NCBI GenBank assembly: GCA_002189035.1
Contig: NEEC01000017.1
Span: 682,001-746,000, forward strand
Length of the DNA stretch: 64,000 bases
Direction of reading: 5' to 3'
Source: Utricularia gibba
Taxonomy: Eukaryota; Streptophyta; Magnoliopsida; Lamiales; Lentibulariaceae
Position numbers and translations under genes: made by a program. Under the pieces are notes generated by a model, which was given only the letters and a program-made list of their open reading frames with translations, searched no databases and was not told the DNA's origin. Position 1 is the first letter of the stretch. Each line of letters opens with the position of its first letter. Below are positions 16,521 through 27,600 of the stretch, one piece after another.

Positions 16521-19461
16521 CTACAACGAAGTCCGTTTCTCAATTGCATATTTCATTTTGCTGATGAAGTCATCGACAGGCATTGTTCCCAGTTCTCCGG
16601 TGAGCCTGGACCGGACCGTCACCGTTTTGGCTTCCACCTCCTTCGGCCCCACGACAGCCATCAGCGGAATCTTGAGCTTCTCCGAGTTCCTAATCAGCTT
16701 CGCCAGCCGCTCGCCACTGCAAACTTCAGCCCGGATGCCTATTGCTTTCAGCTGGCTGCAGACCTGGTAGCAGTACTCCAGCTGGTGGAAGCCGAGATCA
16801 TTAGGATTTGTACTAAAAGGGCATTTATGTTTCTCAACGAAGAAAGAGCTCATGTTACCTCGGAATCAGTTACTGGCAAAAGTCGAGTTTGAATTGGGGA
16901 GAGCCACAGCGGAAAATCACCAGCATAATGCTCTATGAGAACACCAAAAAACCGCTCCAGGGAACCAAGAACTGCCCGGTGAATCATTATAGGCTGCTTT
17001 TTCTCTTGATTGGAGTCGACATAAGAGATGTCGAAGCGCCGAGGCAAGTTGAAGTCCACCTGTTTGAAAGAAGTTCCCTTTAGTTGCAGTACAGAAGCTA
17101 GCAAGAAGAAGCTAACTAGTTACAGTGAGGATCAGATGCCTGTCACCTGTATGGTTGAGCACTGCCATTTTCTTCCGAGTGCGTCTTCTATTTTAAGGTC
17201 AATTTTGGGACCATAAAAGGCACCCCCACCGTCATCGATCTGATAACTCCAACCTTTGTCGTTTAAAGCATCTTTCAGTGCAGTTGTTGCCTTCTCCCAG
17301 ATATCATCATCCCCAACAGATTTCTCTGGTCTAGTTGAGAGGTTCACTTCATATTTGTTGAAGCCGAACAGCAGCAATATTTCCTCAGTAAGATCAAGGA
17401 CACCCCGGATTTCGTCTCTAATTTGATTGTCTAAACAGAATATGTGGGCATCATCCTGTAAAGCTACCATAGAACACATTGAGTCAAGTGGATTGATTGA
17501 CAGATGAAGAAAAGCACCACAAGTGAGGATCTGATTAGCACAAGAATGTTTTCAAATTATGGTACAGGGGGGTAAAAGGTGATCATGCCCAAGTTTTCTC
17601 AAATGGTTTGCTCAAGGAATGCGGAGAAAGACAAAAGCATACCTGTGTAAATCCCCTTACTCGAAAGAGGCCATGCAAGCTCCCTGACAATTCATATCTG
17701 TACACTGTGCCAAGCTCCGCAACCCTTATTGGGAGGTCTCTGTACGAGTGAAGTTTGTTTTTGTAGACTAATATGTGGTAAGGACAATTCATAGGCCGAA
17801 GTTGATACAGTTCCTCCTCTACACCCATCTGATCAAACATGTTCTCCTTATAAAAATCAAGATGGCCACTAATCTTCCAAAGATCTGCCTTGGCTACATG
17901 AGGAGTATACAGCAGATCATATCCACGCTGAATGTGAATCTTTTTCCAAGCATCTTCGATTATGTGCCGTATCATAGCACCTTTGGGGTGCCAGAAAACC
18001 AAACCTCCGCCTGCATCATCCTGCATAAACTTGTCTAATATCAGCATTCAACTTCTGGTAGTCCGAGGAGAGATTCAAATGTACATCAGCAGGACAGTAG
18101 ACTCAAGATAGCTGAGAACCATCATCCGGATACCTGGATAGAAAACAAATCAAGGTCAAGGCCAATTCGACGGTGGTCACGCCTTTTAGCCTCCTCCTTG
18201 AGTTGAAGATACAGTTTTAGTTGTTCTTCATTTTCCCATGCAGTGCCATATATCCTCTGCAACATGGGCTTATTTGTATCTCCTCTCCAATAGGCCCCAG
18301 CAACAGACTCAAGCTCAAATGCTTTTGTACTAATACTCCCAGTAGTTTCAACATGAGGCCCAGCACAAAGATCCCACCATTCATTCCCTGTGCATCATTA
18401 TGGACTAAAGACTTTATAAAACTTGGAAGGAGATACAAATGCATGGCCTTGGTCCAGATACAAGACTCACAAGAAAATATTATCATCCTTCTGGAAACAT
18501 GTAAAAAGAATAGCAGAACATCCATCACCCTGTAGTCATATTAAAAGGAAGGAAAGGAATCACCTATGTGATATATGGTTATAGGCTCCTGTTTGATGCT
18601 CTCCAATATGTCCATCTTGTATGGCTCATTGATGGCCATTATCCGTCTTCCAGCCTCCTCCCTACTCACTTCTTCTCGAATCAGAGGAAAATTTTTACGA
18701 ATAATGCTATCCTGCATACCCACCAAGACATAATTCATCAAACCAGAACCACAGCCTGACTTTATTCACTTCTACACTATCATTGCCAGGAAATTGAGGA
18801 AAGCGAATAGTGGCCTAAACATGGGGGTACAAGAAGACAGTAATTACCATCTCTTTCTTGATTTTCTTAAGGTCCTGATCCGTCAGGGGCTCCATATCAA
18901 AATCATAATAAAAACCATGTTCGATCCACGGTCCAATTGTCACTTTAGCATTCGGATATATCTTCTGGACAGCCATCGCCATGACATGAGCACACTGCAT
19001 TCACCAACAATTTACTGATGATTACTTGTAACTTACAAACGAGAATGCATAAGGAGACCCACATCCCATGCAGCAACCATCATGCCATTCCCATTTCCAG
19101 ATTCTAGTGGGAACTAAACGAGGAAGAGGTCTTGAAAGTAGCAAAGGAATGGAAGACCCGAAAATACGATAGAAAAACCACTAACGGTGTGTCGAATTCT
19201 GAGTAGCCTCTCCGATGACTGATTAGTAGGGAGGACAATTTGACCCTCCACGGCAGTGGGGACCGTAACGTCGGTGGCAACGGCGGAGAATCTAGCCTTC
19301 CGAAGTATCATCTTATCCGCAGCGTGGAAGGTTGTAGGCTTCGGGGCATAAGAAAAAGAGTGGCAGAGGGGATTTACGCCACGGAGATAAGCAACGGGTG
19401 AAAGACGGTTGCAGAGGAGGAAGGCGGCGGAGCGTGGTACGGATCCCGCCGCCATTGCCAT
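16521..19461 (-). CDS. organellar threonyl-tRNA synthetase
   Basis: Class II aminoacyl-tRNA synthetase charging tRNA-Thr; the closest plant relatives are dual-targeted to plastids and mitochondria. The N-terminus from the Met at 19461 ([20 protein letters not shown]) is basic, Ser/Ala-rich and acid-free, fitting an organelle presequence; an in-frame Met at 19575 is possible. The editing-type domain shows RIRHT then [10 protein letters not shown], split by an intron (H-x3-H type motif). The catalytic core carries the family's zinc ligands Cys ([12 protein letters not shown]), His ([12 protein letters not shown]) and His ([17 protein letters not shown]). The anticodon-binding domain ([34 protein letters not shown]) ends in [12 protein letters not shown]. 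About ten exons, all in frame in my reading. Convergent with ADA2, tandem with the MRS2 gene. Confidence 0.93.
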
Positions 19462-19805
19462 TGCACTCTGCGCGTGTGTGAGTGGATGATAAATGATACC
19501 CCTTGCTGCCCAGTATGTGGTGATAACCGAGCCTCCCATTGACTGACTACTTTTGTGGGCGAGCGCAAAGCTCAATTTTTAGGCGAGACCCCAACCCCAT
19601 TCAACTCGATTCTGCACCGGATTCGAATTGGGATTCGATCTAAACACGACTTCAACAGAGGACTCGAGATACCCAGTAAACAAAATCTCGACTTGAACCC
19701 ACATCCCATTTCAGACAATTATAAGCAGTGTCAGATAGTTTACATAATGCATTCATGTGTCTCTGTGCAGCAGCGGCCATAAGCTTATCCAATCATGATC
19801 ACTCC

Positions 19806-21756
19806 TCAAGCAAGCCCCTTGAAGCGGGCGTACGAAAATATGGCCAAAAAGATGAGGATCCCCACAAACACTGTCAAAAGAATAACCTGCAGAAAATGAA
19901 TCCGTAACTCATGACCCAATCAATCGCTTACGCAGTAGCAATGTTTTTAGTGTTGGTAATCACTAACCCATTTGAAGACATATGCATGACCCGCGTTCCA
20001 CGTATATGGGATGCTCACTCCAAATATTCCCGCCACCAAGGCGTAAAAAGAAAGACTCAGGCTTCCAGCGGTGAGGAAGAGCTCCAACTGCAAGACGAGA
20101 AGGGTTATGGAAGCCTAAGGTTTCGGAAGGAAAGGAACATGTGGGGTTCAAGATCCGGACCCGAATCAGCTGGTTCCGACGGCTTTCATGCTGTAGATTG
20201 AGAAAAACTAAAATTCACATCTACGTTTCCCGTTAAACTCCGGTGAAAGAGCCGGCAATGGTTACCTGAATATTTATGTATCCTTCTGTGCTATCAATGT
20301 ATTCCCGTAGCTGCCAATGTTGCAGTGCGTGATCCATTCATCAAAGAGTTTCTTAAAGGTTGCAATGGTATGGTGAACGAGTTGGGTACCTTAGCTAATC
20401 TGTTCAGCGTCCCGTCCATGTGCATGAAGCAAGCCTGCAGTGCAGAAGCAAGATGATTTTCAAATCCCTGTAACGATGAACACTCCTAAATGTTTGGTAC
20501 CTCGAACAGCATTTCGAGTTGTTCGACATCATTCGGGTGCACTTGAACTGTGGCAATACTGGCAATGCTGCTGCCATCCATGGACGTCTCCAGGTCAGAA
20601 AGTGGACGGATTGGATCCCTTGAGGTGTTTTTCGATAGATGAAGATCTTCCATATGATTGTCGCCATCCAACAGATGCTCTAGCTCGTCTCGCAGCTAAA
20701 TGAATGCAAGAAGGGAACTGCTCCATGTACTGAAATGAGTAGTTTAGTCACAAAAAAGGTGGGATGCCGCTACCTTTTGCACACGAGTTGTCAGTCTAGT
20801 CATTTGGCTCTTTAGCTTCCGCACACGATCTAAGTTGCCGCTGGAGACCTTCAAAACCCAGCAGCATGTTGCAGTCCGGAGACTAAAGGTCAGGAATTCA
20901 GATAAATTCTTGTGCTCAAAATTTCAACTCGCCTTGGATGTGAGCATGTCTAGGGCCGGGTAGATGGCGGCCTCCAAGTCCGTCGTGCGGGTGGAAAGGT
21001 AACTGCAAATGGACTCCAAAGCAGCCTCCAGCGCCAGTAGCTCAAATGGAGAACCTGCTATAGTTCAGGGCCATATGACAGAAGCTAATATCGTTGTGGT
21101 TCATGATAAGAAAATAAGAAACACCTTCGCCATTTTCTTTGTTTGGCTGCTGCTGCTGCTGCATCTGGATATTCTGCTCCCGCTCTGCATTCAGAGGCCT
21201 TATGCGCCTCCGCAGATCCTTCACCACCGGCTCAACATCCTCATCCATTGGATCACGTAGAAATATCTGCATTTTGCAGGCATATGGCAGCAACTGAATA
21301 TGTGTTTTCTGATGGCATGTTGAGAGGAGGCTGAGGCATACCTCTCTGGATGTGATGATCGCCTTGATATGCTGTCAACATTCCATCCAACCCATAAAAA
21401 CAGAAGCAGTAGAAATGCTTGATAACAACAGGGTGCACTCAGGACATTTACTTCACCTCAAGGTTGACGACAATTGCTCTCTTCCGCCTGAGGATGGCCG
21501 AGGGATACGACAACTGCGGATCGAGAACCCGAAGATCCCTCGCATGTATCTGCAGCCGTTGCATCATTGCGTATTTATCGACGTCGAGAAAAGCTTCTTG
21601 GCCGGAAGAGTCCATCAGAATCCAAGTCCGCGAGCCAGCTGCAGCACCTATCTTCATCCCAGAACCATCCTCTGGATCATCCATTGGCGGTGCAGTGCAG
21701 TGCTTGCCCCTCCCTAAAGCTTCATCTTTGATCAGATAGCCCAAAAGGGCCAACAA
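19806..21756 (-). CDS. MRS2/MGT (CorA-type) magnesium transporter homolog with a GVS in place of GMN
   Basis: Member of the plant MRS2 family of pentameric Mg2+ channels. Start is either the Met at 21756 or MDDPEDGSG at 21684. Family blocks in order: [38 protein letters not shown], a 7-residue exon AIITSRE (about 21353-21333), [72 protein letters not shown] 30-nt microexon (about 20191-20162: [10 protein letters not shown]) matches the family's usual microexon. The two C-terminal spans are [20 protein letters not shown] and [20 protein letters not shown], ending RFKGLA. Between them the loop reads [20 protein letters not shown]: the signature Gly-Met-Asn is Gly-Val-Ser. The microexon's donor (GTCCGG) is weak. 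Otherwise the gene looks intact. Confidence 0.88.
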
Positions 21757-22440
21757 TTTAGAGACGCTAATGAAGCCTCTACCGCATCACAATCACAGGC
21801 GTGTCAACGCATTCCGACATCACAACACACGCACACTGCCATTGCATGGTAATAGAAAAGTTTGTAACAGTTAATGAGGGTGGTGTCATATTTTAGACGT
21901 CTAAAGGCAACTACGTTGACTTCTGCAACAACTCTTTCAGCATGCATTCGAGTGAGGTTACACCACAGTCTCACAGAATGTGGATTGTGGGGGTGCAAGT
22001 GGAAAAGCTCGAGCTAATGGGAGGAGAAAGCGGGCCTCAATCCTCACACAACAATACAGTTCGAAGACTGGGATATCAATGCATGGGTTTGGGAGGGGAT
22101 GATCAATCCAAACACAATTGTTTTTCCAAAATTCGAACTCATGGATTTTAGGTTTTCTGTCATTTAATGCCTTTTTATTCAACCCTGTTGCATTTTTTTT
22201 TTTCCAGAACTGGCACTGGTTGGTATCTAGTATGGGGAGCGGAAATCGTAGTACCATGGATGAAAGGTGATGACATGTATAAAAGTGTGAAGCATCTGGG
22301 GCTTTTACATCCAACCGGTTAAATACCATCCTACAAGAAACTGCAGTTGTGCTGGTTTCATGGTAATGAAAATCTTCCTACAGTCAAGCATCCTGAACTG
22401 TAAAGCAACTCAAACTGGACGGTAGCAAAGGGAGCTTTAC

Positions 22441-24678
22441 TCACATGCCCCAAATGCCACGGGCTGATGCTACTCTAGAATTCGGACGAGTGCTGAGTTC
22501 AAAGAGTATCCGAGCAAATGTGTCCGCGTACCTGGGGTCCATGAAAAGCATTTCTGCAAACGCATTCTCATATGCCAGCAGGAGGGGCTTGTTCTGTGGC
22601 TCCAAAACAAGGTTCTCTAAGATCAAGGCAGCTTTCCTGCAGATTTCTGGTACTGGATGTGGCATTTTAATAACCTTCAGCAACCTATCAATTGCCCTGG
22701 GTTTACAGTGCCACAAACCCATGTGAATGCAAACATCATATGGCAATGATTTAAAGGAATGCATTTGTGTGGAATCCCTACCATCTCTCACTCGCTAGTT
22801 TTAACCGGCAGTCCATGTTAACTTCGACCAGGTTGTAAAGTGCACCAATCGCTGCTGCTTGGGCATCAGCAGCAGGGAAGCTCATAATATCAACCAATCT
22901 CCTGTATATCTGTGACTTGACAAAGATTAATTGTTTTGCCAAGATGCTAAAAGATCAACAGCCGCTGAAAGAAATTTGTAGGTTTTGAAACTGAGGATAC
23001 GGAGAAAAAAAAAAAAAAAAACTGACCCTTGTTGCAAATGGGAGGAGAAAGGGCTCATTATCAGGGTTTAGTGCCAGGCGACCGATTAGTTCAGCAGCAG
23101 CACAGTGCCACCCTCGTACACCAGAACCAAGAATTTCCACCATGGCCTCAACGGCTCGTTTGTCACTGGAGAGGTGAACATGACAAACAATCAGAGATCA
23201 AAAGAACGAAGAAATATTTTTGAGCAGAAAATTGCAGTAGCATTACGTCATTTTGATGAAAGAAGGTTTTGATGAGGTAAATATTCGTAGGTCAATCAAC
23301 GGCCCCAAATTCATGATCGTCTCCAGGGCATTTGTAACGAGCTCTTCATCCTCTGTAAACATTCACCATTCAGAAGTTCTAGTAAGAAACGTATGGCAAC
23401 ACAGAATTACAACCACCAGACACAGCAAGTTCTCACGGTCCTTTAACTTCACCAAACAGAAGAATGTAACTCACGTTTATGCTACATAAATTTAAAAGAC
23501 TGAAAATAAATTCAAATCTTCTCACCTGTAACATAATCCTCCAGACACTGGAACATTGTTTCAATGCAATGTCGACTCTGACCCATAGCAATTTCATTCT
23601 CAGTCATAAACGAAAAGTTCCTTATGATGTTTGAAGCAGCTACCGCACACTGCTGCTTTTCCATCCTCCCTTCTTCATCCAGATTAAAAAGACCATCTTC
23701 CTCAAACCACCAAACCGAAGGATGAGGCCTACCATTACCCTTATCACCAGATACCTCATTATTTGATGGAACTGATCCAGCACTACCATTGAGTCATCAA
23801 GTATCAGGATTCAACATACACTGACCCAAATTCATCTATCAAATAAAGTTTGTATGCATTTGAAATTTAAGCAGTCGGTTTTACCCAGGATGAGCAAAGG
23901 AGTCAACAGACTTCAAAGCCTCGTACTCATTTCCAAACCCGTAACAGCAGAGTTTGTCCCCAGCAGTCGTACTCTTGGTCTCTTCATGAGTACTCTTGGG
24001 AGGGCAATATCACGCCAATCATCTATCTGCTCTATTTGGAAACACCCAGATCACGAGCAGCAAAACTCAGTACATATCATGATACACAGGAATAGGTGCT
24101 TACGACTTGGAGCAGAGCATCAAGTAAGCATGGTATCTTGGCAAGAGGAATCGCATCTCTACGCATGTCATCTTTCTCCTTGAAGGAAAGCAATGTAAGA
24201 GCATTTAACGCCCATGTCAATTCACTCTTCAGCCCACTCTGAAGAGCCATAACTATCCGTTTATTATTTTGATCTGGCAATATGACAGCAGACGAAGTAT
24301 GCAATTATAGCCCACACAAAGATGAAAATTACGAGCAAAAAAAGACTAATTTTCTCCCAATATGCGATTAAGGGCAAATGCAAATAGAAACCATTACAAT
24401 TTGCACTTGCATATGATCCCCTGCAGGTGGAAAAATCCACAATCTTTACTCCATGGGCATCACGAAACAATTACCTGCGAACGCGGAGTGAACCTGCAGA
24501 GACGGGCCCAGCAGAGAGAATGGGGCGGCGGAATCGCCCAGCGCAAAATTTGCCGCAGACGCAACTGCTATAGCGGAGCTCCCAGCGCTATTGTTACCGC
24601 TGCCTACCGGACGCCCCCTCTTGGCCGCCGGAGGGCCGAGCCCCCGCCGATTCCTCCTGGCCTGCTTTGTTTCTGCAT
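22441..24678 (-). CDS. LFR: LFR (LEAF AND FLOWER RELATED) armadillo-repeat SWI/SNF subunit, with an apparent frameshift in exon 1
   Basis: Plant nuclear ARM-repeat protein that works with SWI/SNF chromatin remodellers in leaf and flower development. Start MQKQSRPGGIGGG at 24678 matches the family N-terminus (MQKR...). At a five-base run (24641-24645, C on +, G on the coding strand) the frame breaks; one base over it continues LGPPAAKRGRPVGS and FSLLGPSLQVHSAFA to a donor after 24475. Exon 2 from 24273 reads DQNNKRIVMALQSGLKSELT. Later exons give DDWRDIALPRVLMKRPRVRL, HPSVWWFEEDGLFNLDEEGR, ASNIIRNFSFM, GWHCAAAELIGRLALNPDNE, ALYNLVEVNMDCRLKLASER, and the last exon ends NSRVASARGIWGM, the family C-terminus. 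About 460 residues expected. Confidence 0.88.
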
Positions 24679-27600
24679 CATCGGTCTTCTCACGTCAGTC
24701 CAAAGCAAGAAAGATGACGAAAAAAAAAAGAAATAAATAGAGCGGAAGAAACTGGGCCACGCCCCCCTTTTCTCACGTCCATCCATATCTTCTCGGCCCG
24801 GTTTTTAATTGGGCCCCCGACAAGGCATGTCTTGAAGCCCAGATTTCATTATTAAAAGACTAGAGATGGGCACGTGCCCAGCCCGAGAGTGCCAAGAAAC
24901 TTAAGTCAAGCAGAAGCTGGAGTTTTTTCTGAAATATTCCTATAATAAGGATTGGATTAAAGAAAGTAAGGCTGTAATGTTTTGAAAGTAAGCAAACGGG
25001 TGTAATGATTGTTATTCAGCATATATAAAATAACTACAAGGAAGCTTTTTTTATAGTTCATGATTACTTAGACCTAAAAGTGTGGAAATAAGACATGTCT
25101 CAATCCCTTTTTCTCAACTATTAAATTGACTATACTATATGCGGGTTTATGTGGTATCAATTATAAAATTACTTTAATCGTTATGTATAGACAAGTTTGT
25201 CATTTTTATTTTTTCTATACTTATCACCCTATTCTATTGATTGTCTCTTTTACTAAGGATAGTATATGTAAATATCATGTCAAATAATGAGGATCAATTT
25301 TAATCATTAATCATTGAGCAATGAACCCACAACATCAAACTATGAACCATTACTACTCATAACTTTGGGAGAAAAATCAAATGGATTTTTACTTTCAATT
25401 TTTACATGGGTTGCATGAAAGATAATCTTGTAGACAAATTTGTTGAATTAGTTGATATATGCACATGACAAAGGACAATAAATATTAACATCAAGCAGCC
25501 ATAATAACTGTAGATTTCATGTATTTTATAAACTCTAAAGAATATATAAATAACATAAATGTAAGTTCAATGAAAAATGTTTATTTAAAATAAGATAATT
25601 TATAATATATTTATATTTTTAATAAAATAATATCTCACTATATATGTATAAATATATTTTTTGAAAATAAAAAATTTTAGTTCTTCAATGGAACAACAAT
25701 TTTTTCAATCTTCAATTTGCTTACTTTTTCATGATATGATGAATATAGAAATGGATTGAGATGAAGCAATTTTCTTGCTTCTAATTATGATAGCAATTCT
25801 CATGTAAATTTTAAATGAGAGTTTTGAAGTCTTATTATGTAGCAAAAATTTTCATTTACTATCTAAAAAATTACAAAAAATGTAGCAATTACTCAAGAAC
25901 ATATCAAAAAATTATTAAGCTTATTCAAATTTCAAGTTTAGACACATTTGACATATTTTGAGTTTTACAATCACTTGAAAAAAATTTTCGTAATTGGAAG
26001 CATAATGCTGGTACTCACTACAAAGAACAAGATGAGATTGATGGATAGTCTAATGAAACTAAAACAAGTTAATGATTTTGAGTACATCTTTAAACATTTC
26101 TAGAAATATTGATATGGTTATCTAGAAACGTTTATTAACTTTACGGAAATCCTTAATTTAGTGAGAGTTAGATGTGTGGAAATGGAAAGGTGGAAGTCTC
26201 ATTTCTACAAGCAAACGAGGCTAAAAAAGCCTACGAAAATTTTAGCATCTCACTACTACTTCTTCAGTTTCCTTTCACGGCTCATCTCCAAACTTCTTCA
26301 AGTTGTGTTTTATTTCATTTCCATGCATTTTCCATTCTCCTTGCTTCTTGGTTTCTCTAGTTCCATTTTTTACTATTTAAAACATAGGTTTTCGTTCTTT
26401 CTCTACTATGTGAATTGTTTTGGTTTTTCTTTTTTGTTGTCGTGCTCTTCCATATTCTGCGTGAATTTTGTTCTCTGATCAAACTAACTTCTTTGCATTA
26501 CATTATTATGTATATCTATAATTCTAATATACTTGATAGTTGGATTCTTATTTATCATTTGATGCACTTTATTCTTATTATGTTATATATATTTATGATT
26601 TTTTAGTTAGATTTTTTTGTTATAGAATAATCACTAGAGTATTACAATTTCTAATACATGAAACTTCATTTTGGATGTATACATTAAGATAAATTGATCC
26701 TTGTTTTAATTTGAATAAATGTTAGTAAGAATCTAAATATATAAAAATTTACAAAAAAATAATTTTTGGAAAAAAAATTATGAATTACTAATATGAAGCT
26801 CCACATGTCATTTTACAAAACATGTATACAATAAGTAACTTGGAGGAGAATTTAATGAGTATTCTACTATACCTTCACAATTTTCTCTAAGTATTGAAAA
26901 AGAAAAGGTATATATATAGCACAAAAGACAGTGAAGTATAAACAATAAAAGAAATAATTGATAAATTTTATTAGTGTCATCAATGATGAATCATTTGGAT
27001 AATACAAAGATATTATCAACAATTTACATCATGAGTTTCAAAAAAAAAAAATTGATGTGAATATATAATCAATTATATTTCATAGATCATTGTTTAAAAA
27101 TATTTCAAAATAATTTAAATAAGATGAGCCTCGAATAAAAAAAATATAAAATGACATTTTATAGTATTACAAAGATTAAGAGTTTACTTATATCTCATGG
27201 CACTTCGAAAGATAAAAAAAAGATATTACATGTGTCAATCTCTCCGATTTGAATGACTGATTAGACTTTGAAGTATATATTGATAATTTTTTAAACTTGG
27301 AATAATCTATCTATTTTGAATTTGGTGTATGATTAAACTTTATTCATATTTGAATCAATTAAGTTGGTTGCTTATTGGAATAGATCATTAAAAGTGATGG
27401 ACAATAAACTAAGGAGAAGATGAATGAAATGAATAGGCACTAAAGTCGAAATATGTTGCTTGTGGGATTGTAGAAATAGACAAAGAGATAATAAAACCAA
27501 GAGAATAGTCAAATTGAATGATAGTAACAAGTAAATGATAGGAGATGAATGTTGAAATTAAAGAAAACAACAAGAAATATGTTGTTTGATAAAATAGATT

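Follow-up and report, generated by a model that had tools for sequence, protein, structure and literature searches.

An intact gene of the MRS2 family of magnesium transporters in Utricularia gibba carries Gly-Val-Ser (GVS) at the position of the Gly-Met-Asn (GMN) selectivity filter and has evolved under purifying selection. On balance we favour, from its sequence, the reading that it encodes a retained channel subunit, which would either conduct weakly or modulate mixed pentamers formed with GMN paralogues.

A complete MRS2-like gene with a Gly-Val-Ser filter

The gene lies on the minus strand of the window, the 64,000-nucleotide stretch of U. gibba DNA that was analyzed. We describe it with a homology-built model, a match to PF22099 and a structure alignment. 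Its features, in window coordinates, are as follows:

19806..21684, minus strand: MRS2-like gene, 11 exons, 370 aa
21684-21457, minus strand: exon 1
21371-21342, minus strand: exon 2, 30 nt
21266-21125, minus strand: exon 3
21054-20933, minus strand: exon 4
20931..20932, minus strand: GC donor dinucleotide of intron 4
20848-20774, minus strand: exon 5
20695-20501, minus strand: exon 6
20434-20390, minus strand: exon 7
20310-20266, minus strand: exon 8
20190-20161, minus strand: exon 9, 30-nt microexon of the gating helix
20087-19968, minus strand: exon 10, encoding the first transmembrane helix, the filter and the beginning of the loop between the helices
20013..20021, minus strand: Gly-Val-Ser codons GGA GTG AGC (residues 327-329), at the Gly-Met-Asn filter position
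19886-19806, minus strand: exon 11, encoding the second transmembrane helix and the C-terminus

The coding sequence is 1113 nt long including the stop and contains no internal stops or frameshifts. Nine introns have GT donors and one, intron 4, has a GC donor, while all acceptors are AG. The protein scores 96.8 bits on PF22099 (MRS2-like), where the cut-off is 27 (E=1.5e-27), homology far above chance, and its residues 19-361 can be aligned to the MRS2 structures 8TUL and 8IP3 (human and yeast-type compared). Alignment to solved MRS2 channels and to the paralogues places two membrane spans at the C-terminus.

The Gly-Val-Ser assignment of the initial annotation was confirmed: within this complete gene the minus strand reads GGA (20021-20019), GTG (20018-20016) and AGC (20015-20013), and, as also proposed, two A-to-G changes separate GTG-AGC from ATG-AAC. 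The three residues align on G360-M361-N362 of human MRS2. Judged by these alignments the gene encodes an MRS2 protein by descent, yet after the first membrane span it has neither Gly-Met-Asn nor the broader Gly-x-Asn (GxN) signature, the defining mark of this family of transporters.

By eye, the flanking minus-strand genes resemble one for an ARM-repeat protein (22440-24700) and one for a threonyl-tRNA synthetase (18500-19470). U. gibba is reported to have undergone two recent genome duplications. A search of the genome found no second copy of either flanking gene, and an origin of the GVS gene by syntenic duplication is thus without support.

Eight of at least 17 MRS2-like genes have altered filters

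A protein search covering the genome of 100.09 Mb in 516 contigs yielded at least 17 MRS2-like genes, namely the GVS gene and 16 further loci (L035-L050), a count to be read as a minimum, as a diverged member of the chloroplast type might have escaped the search. The paralogue models were built by homology and some of their ends are incomplete. With terminal dS at about 0.4 or above, uncollapsed haplotypes are excluded as the source of the 17 copies. Nine of the genes have a GMN filter (L035, L036, L039, L040, L041, L042, L044, L045 and L048), and the filter is altered in the other eight: the GVS gene, L037 (GAN), L038 (GMM), L043 and L050 (both GVN), L046 (AIN), L047 (AEN) and L049 (AMN). With eight of 17 paralogues altered, the GVS gene is not a one-gene oddity. 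The initial annotation missed the family-wide pattern, the non-GMN filter of the closest paralogue and the diverged gating-helix microexon. For comparison, tomato, likewise an asterid, has seven MRS2 genes, all of them with GMN (PMC10347230).

Several of these loci have features of their own. L046 (G000:C451:5928100-5930500) and L047 (G000:C304:2484800-2487300) are sister MRS2-like genes; the Glu within the L047 filter is a drastic change, and purifying selection is seen nonetheless (omega 0.27 for L046 and 0.18 for L047). L038 (G000:C496:424000-426800) is a second paralogue lacking the filter Asn, with omega 0.18-0.24. The genome also holds a bacterial-type CorA-like plant gene (L051, G000:C413:1293300-1296000; PF01544) with a GIN filter. 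A literature search found no report of a GVS filter in CorA proteins; we met no literature report of GAN, GMM or AEN filters, which were not searched by name.

The altered genes are under purifying selection

Selection was estimated with a GY94-type codon likelihood using F3x4 frequencies and branch-specific omega. A single omega for the six-gene clade that includes the GVS gene is 0.153. On the terminal branch of the GVS gene dN/dS is 0.166 (dS 0.71, dN 0.12; 95% profile interval about 0.10-0.30), for which neutrality is rejected (p=5e-6) and which is not distinguished from the clade background (p=0.75). The estimate is stable at 0.165-0.174 under alternative topologies and four-taxon sampling. 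When the gene is divided, the estimates for the cytosolic part (0.18) and for the helix-plus-membrane part (0.17) both fit better than omega=1.

Taken singly, each of the eight altered genes has an omega below 1 (0.16-0.27), L037 having 0.23-0.27. Over the terminal branches of all 17 genes, omega is 0.199 for altered vs 0.081 for GMN genes (p=5e-10). This contrast is not an artefact of saturated branches, as it holds at 0.192 vs 0.078 (p=1e-8) once the saturated GMN branches L039 and L048 are left out. By these estimates the altered-filter genes are less constrained than the GMN genes and are clearly maintained.

The suggestion that the GVS gene is an early pseudogene does not agree with a dN/dS of about 0.17 over a dS of about 0.7, equal in the membrane part, in a gene with intact frame and splice sites; the marks of a pseudogene, a disabled frame or splice site and a dN/dS near 1, were not found.

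The methionine was probably lost before the asparagine

The nearest relative of the GVS gene in the genome is L037, which is also non-GMN (tree support 90/90), and other placements of the GVS gene cost at least 27 lnL units under the codon model. The exon-intron plan is common to the GVS gene and its five clade paralogues, and the GC donor at intron 4 occurs only in the GVS gene and L037 among the six. L037 (G000:C3:1047900-1050700) has GC donors in three of its ten introns (4, 7 and 10), which is unusual for one gene.

For the common ancestor of the GVS gene and L037, the codon model reconstructs the middle filter residue as Val (0.80; Met 0.16) and the third as Asn (0.94), that is, GVN. On this reconstruction the Met was probably lost before the duplication that separated the two genes, and Asn changed to Ser later. 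Most likely GMN gave way to GVN ahead of the duplication, after which the GVS gene acquired GVS and L037 acquired GAN, and selection most likely kept constraining both lineages once the Met had gone.

Gating helix, loop and pore

In published structures the filter Mg2+ has the side chains of N362 on one side and the carbonyls of G360 on the other (PMC10404273). The acidic loop residues of CtMrs2 make up an uptake site, and the N443A change abolishes the Ni2+ toxicity that depends on Mrs2 in E. coli (PMC11919701). The human and Chaetomium Mrs2 channels (8IP3 and 8Q8P) are like the GVS protein in that they align over the cytosolic domain and the spans and in that the Arg of the R332 ring is kept; unlike them, the GVS protein has Ser at N362, Arg at H331 and Glu at D329. 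It also has Arg at human position 337, where most clade members have Gln; with the Arg at 331 this makes two additional Arg in the gating-helix microexon. Exon 9 has kept its frame, and its content has diverged from the LDNHRNQLIQ that is usual in the clade and in the closest GMN relatives. The description of the rest of the gene, microexon included, as preserved is therefore only partly right: it stands for the frame of exon 9 and not for its content. Overall the GVS gene departs at four sites that are invariant in the other 16 genes, the most of any paralogue.

The loop following the filter has no acidic residue in the GVS gene. Within the six-gene clade the acid is missing from all three altered members (the GVS gene, L037 and L038), and the three GMN members have one or two. 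The association is a hint only, because the sample is small and L042, a GMN gene of a different clade, also lacks the acid, so the feature is not universal; the pattern fails in other clades, and within this clade it rests on few independent events.

Proposed function and alternatives

We suggest that an MRS2 duplication within the lineage of this plant would have yielded the GVS paralogue, which was then retained as protein-coding. The mouth of its pentameric pore would be remodelled, with a GVS in place of a GMN filter ring and with the loop acid lost. Ser would be no substitute for the side chains of Asn, by which hydrated Mg2+ is held, and a homopentamer of the GVS protein would for that reason be expected to conduct Mg2+ poorly. 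One outcome would be a weakly conducting, less Mg-selective channel; a somewhat likelier one would be a modulatory subunit that joins GMN paralogues in mixed pentamers, in which the cytosolic domain and gating helix of the GVS protein would still be constrained. Maintenance of the whole protein, membrane part included, favours a retained channel subunit. What weighs against this reading is that the selection tests are branch averages, which do not date GVS itself, that GVS could be the most recent change on the branch, and that the gene has the most departures at invariant sites. For one paralogue modulating another there is a yeast precedent in Lpe10p and Mrs2p, judging by the title of reference 45 in PMC9276622. 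Sequence does not separate an altered selectivity from a regulatory subunit in mixed pentamers.

The main rival is a change of selectivity: a GVS homopentamer whose Ser ring and lost loop acid would lower the preference for Mg2+ and admit other cations. We consider this a possible reading that falls well short of an even chance. In its favour, the membrane part is constrained and the loop acid is distributed in the clade as if the mouth had been retuned, although the few independent events behind that distribution and its failure in other clades count against it. ZntB, which has GIN, is linked to Zn2+ transport (PMC4613352), but those selectivity variants that are known retain the Asn (GxN), CtMrs2 N443A loses Ni2+ sensitisation (PMC11919701), and the rice AMN and GIN members OsMRS2-4, -5 and -8 have reportedly failed to complement yeast CM66 (PMC9948656).

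It is unlikely, in our estimate, that the gene encodes an ordinary Mg2+ transporter in which the GVS filter is tolerated and carries enough Mg2+. Selection on its branch is not distinguished from the clade background, as would suit such a transporter, but coordination is through the side chain of Asn, and the GVS gene has no loop acid and has gained two Arg in the gating helix. Random mutagenesis of yeast Mrs2p by Sponder in 2013 reportedly gave many GMN variants in which Mg2+ influx was lowered but not lost, which would speak for tolerance. So does ZmMGT6 (AMN), which rescues Salmonella MM281, if weakly and less well than GMN members (PMC9948656).

Very unlikely is a recent inactivation, in which the gene would not yet have collected visible lesions. 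Neutral evolution over up to about the last 5-10% of the branch would often leave no stop and is compatible with the observed absence of stops, but over 20% of the branch the probability of no stop is 0.008. The higher dN/dS of altered-filter branches and the number of departures at invariant sites in the GVS gene lean towards inactivation; against it stand the lack of any stop, frameshift or broken splice site, the low dN/dS over so long a branch, and the sister gene L037, which is altered too and constrained too.

Finally, both codons are read from the assembled sequence, and the chance of a base-calling or assembly error at GTG and AGC is negligible, as two substitutions in neighbouring codons would be an unlikely long-read error, the frame shows no error elsewhere in the gene, and the Val agrees with the reconstructed ancestor.

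Relation to known transporters and significance

From bacteria to man, Mg2+ channels are recognised by their Gly-Met-Asn ring, which is taken as the signature. Some surveys retain only GMN-containing sequences, a selection stated in PMC13022745. Like the plant MRS2/MGT Mg2+ transporters (CorA/MRS2/ALR), the GVS gene has the PF22099 fold, two C-terminal spans and a conserved cytosolic core; unlike them, it has the GVS filter, an altered gating-helix microexon and no loop acid. Naturally altered filters occur in other plants as AMN in rice, maize, wheat, banana and sugarcane (among them OsMRS2-4, OsMRS2-5, ZmMGT6, MaMRS2-4 and TaMGT1A/B/D), as GIN in rice and grape (OsMRS2-8, VvMGT8) and as AIN in sugarcane (SsMGT8). 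Those proteins are likewise intact with a changed tripeptide, and some are reported to complement weakly or not at all, but all keep the Asn at the third position, whereas the GVS gene has Ser and is one of eight altered paralogues in a single genome. ZntB, a bacterial 2-TM-GxN protein, resembles the GVS gene in having a variant tripeptide, in its case linked to a different cation; it differs in keeping the Asn and is only a distant relative.

One small genome with eight altered filters that purifying selection maintains is natural test material, with which one could ask which filters conduct, which shift selectivity and whether MRS2 pentamers mix subunits, and the GVS/GAN/GVN series would offer an ordered evolutionary path through the filter. 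More tentatively, and as a fairly improbable extension, the family may have grown to at least 17 MRS2 genes with the eight filter-altered members kept as non-Mg or regulatory subunits; the GVS gene would then be one of the first members lacking the filter Asn that are known to be constrained, and graded mixed pentamers might tune ion uptake in this rootless carnivorous aquatic plant.
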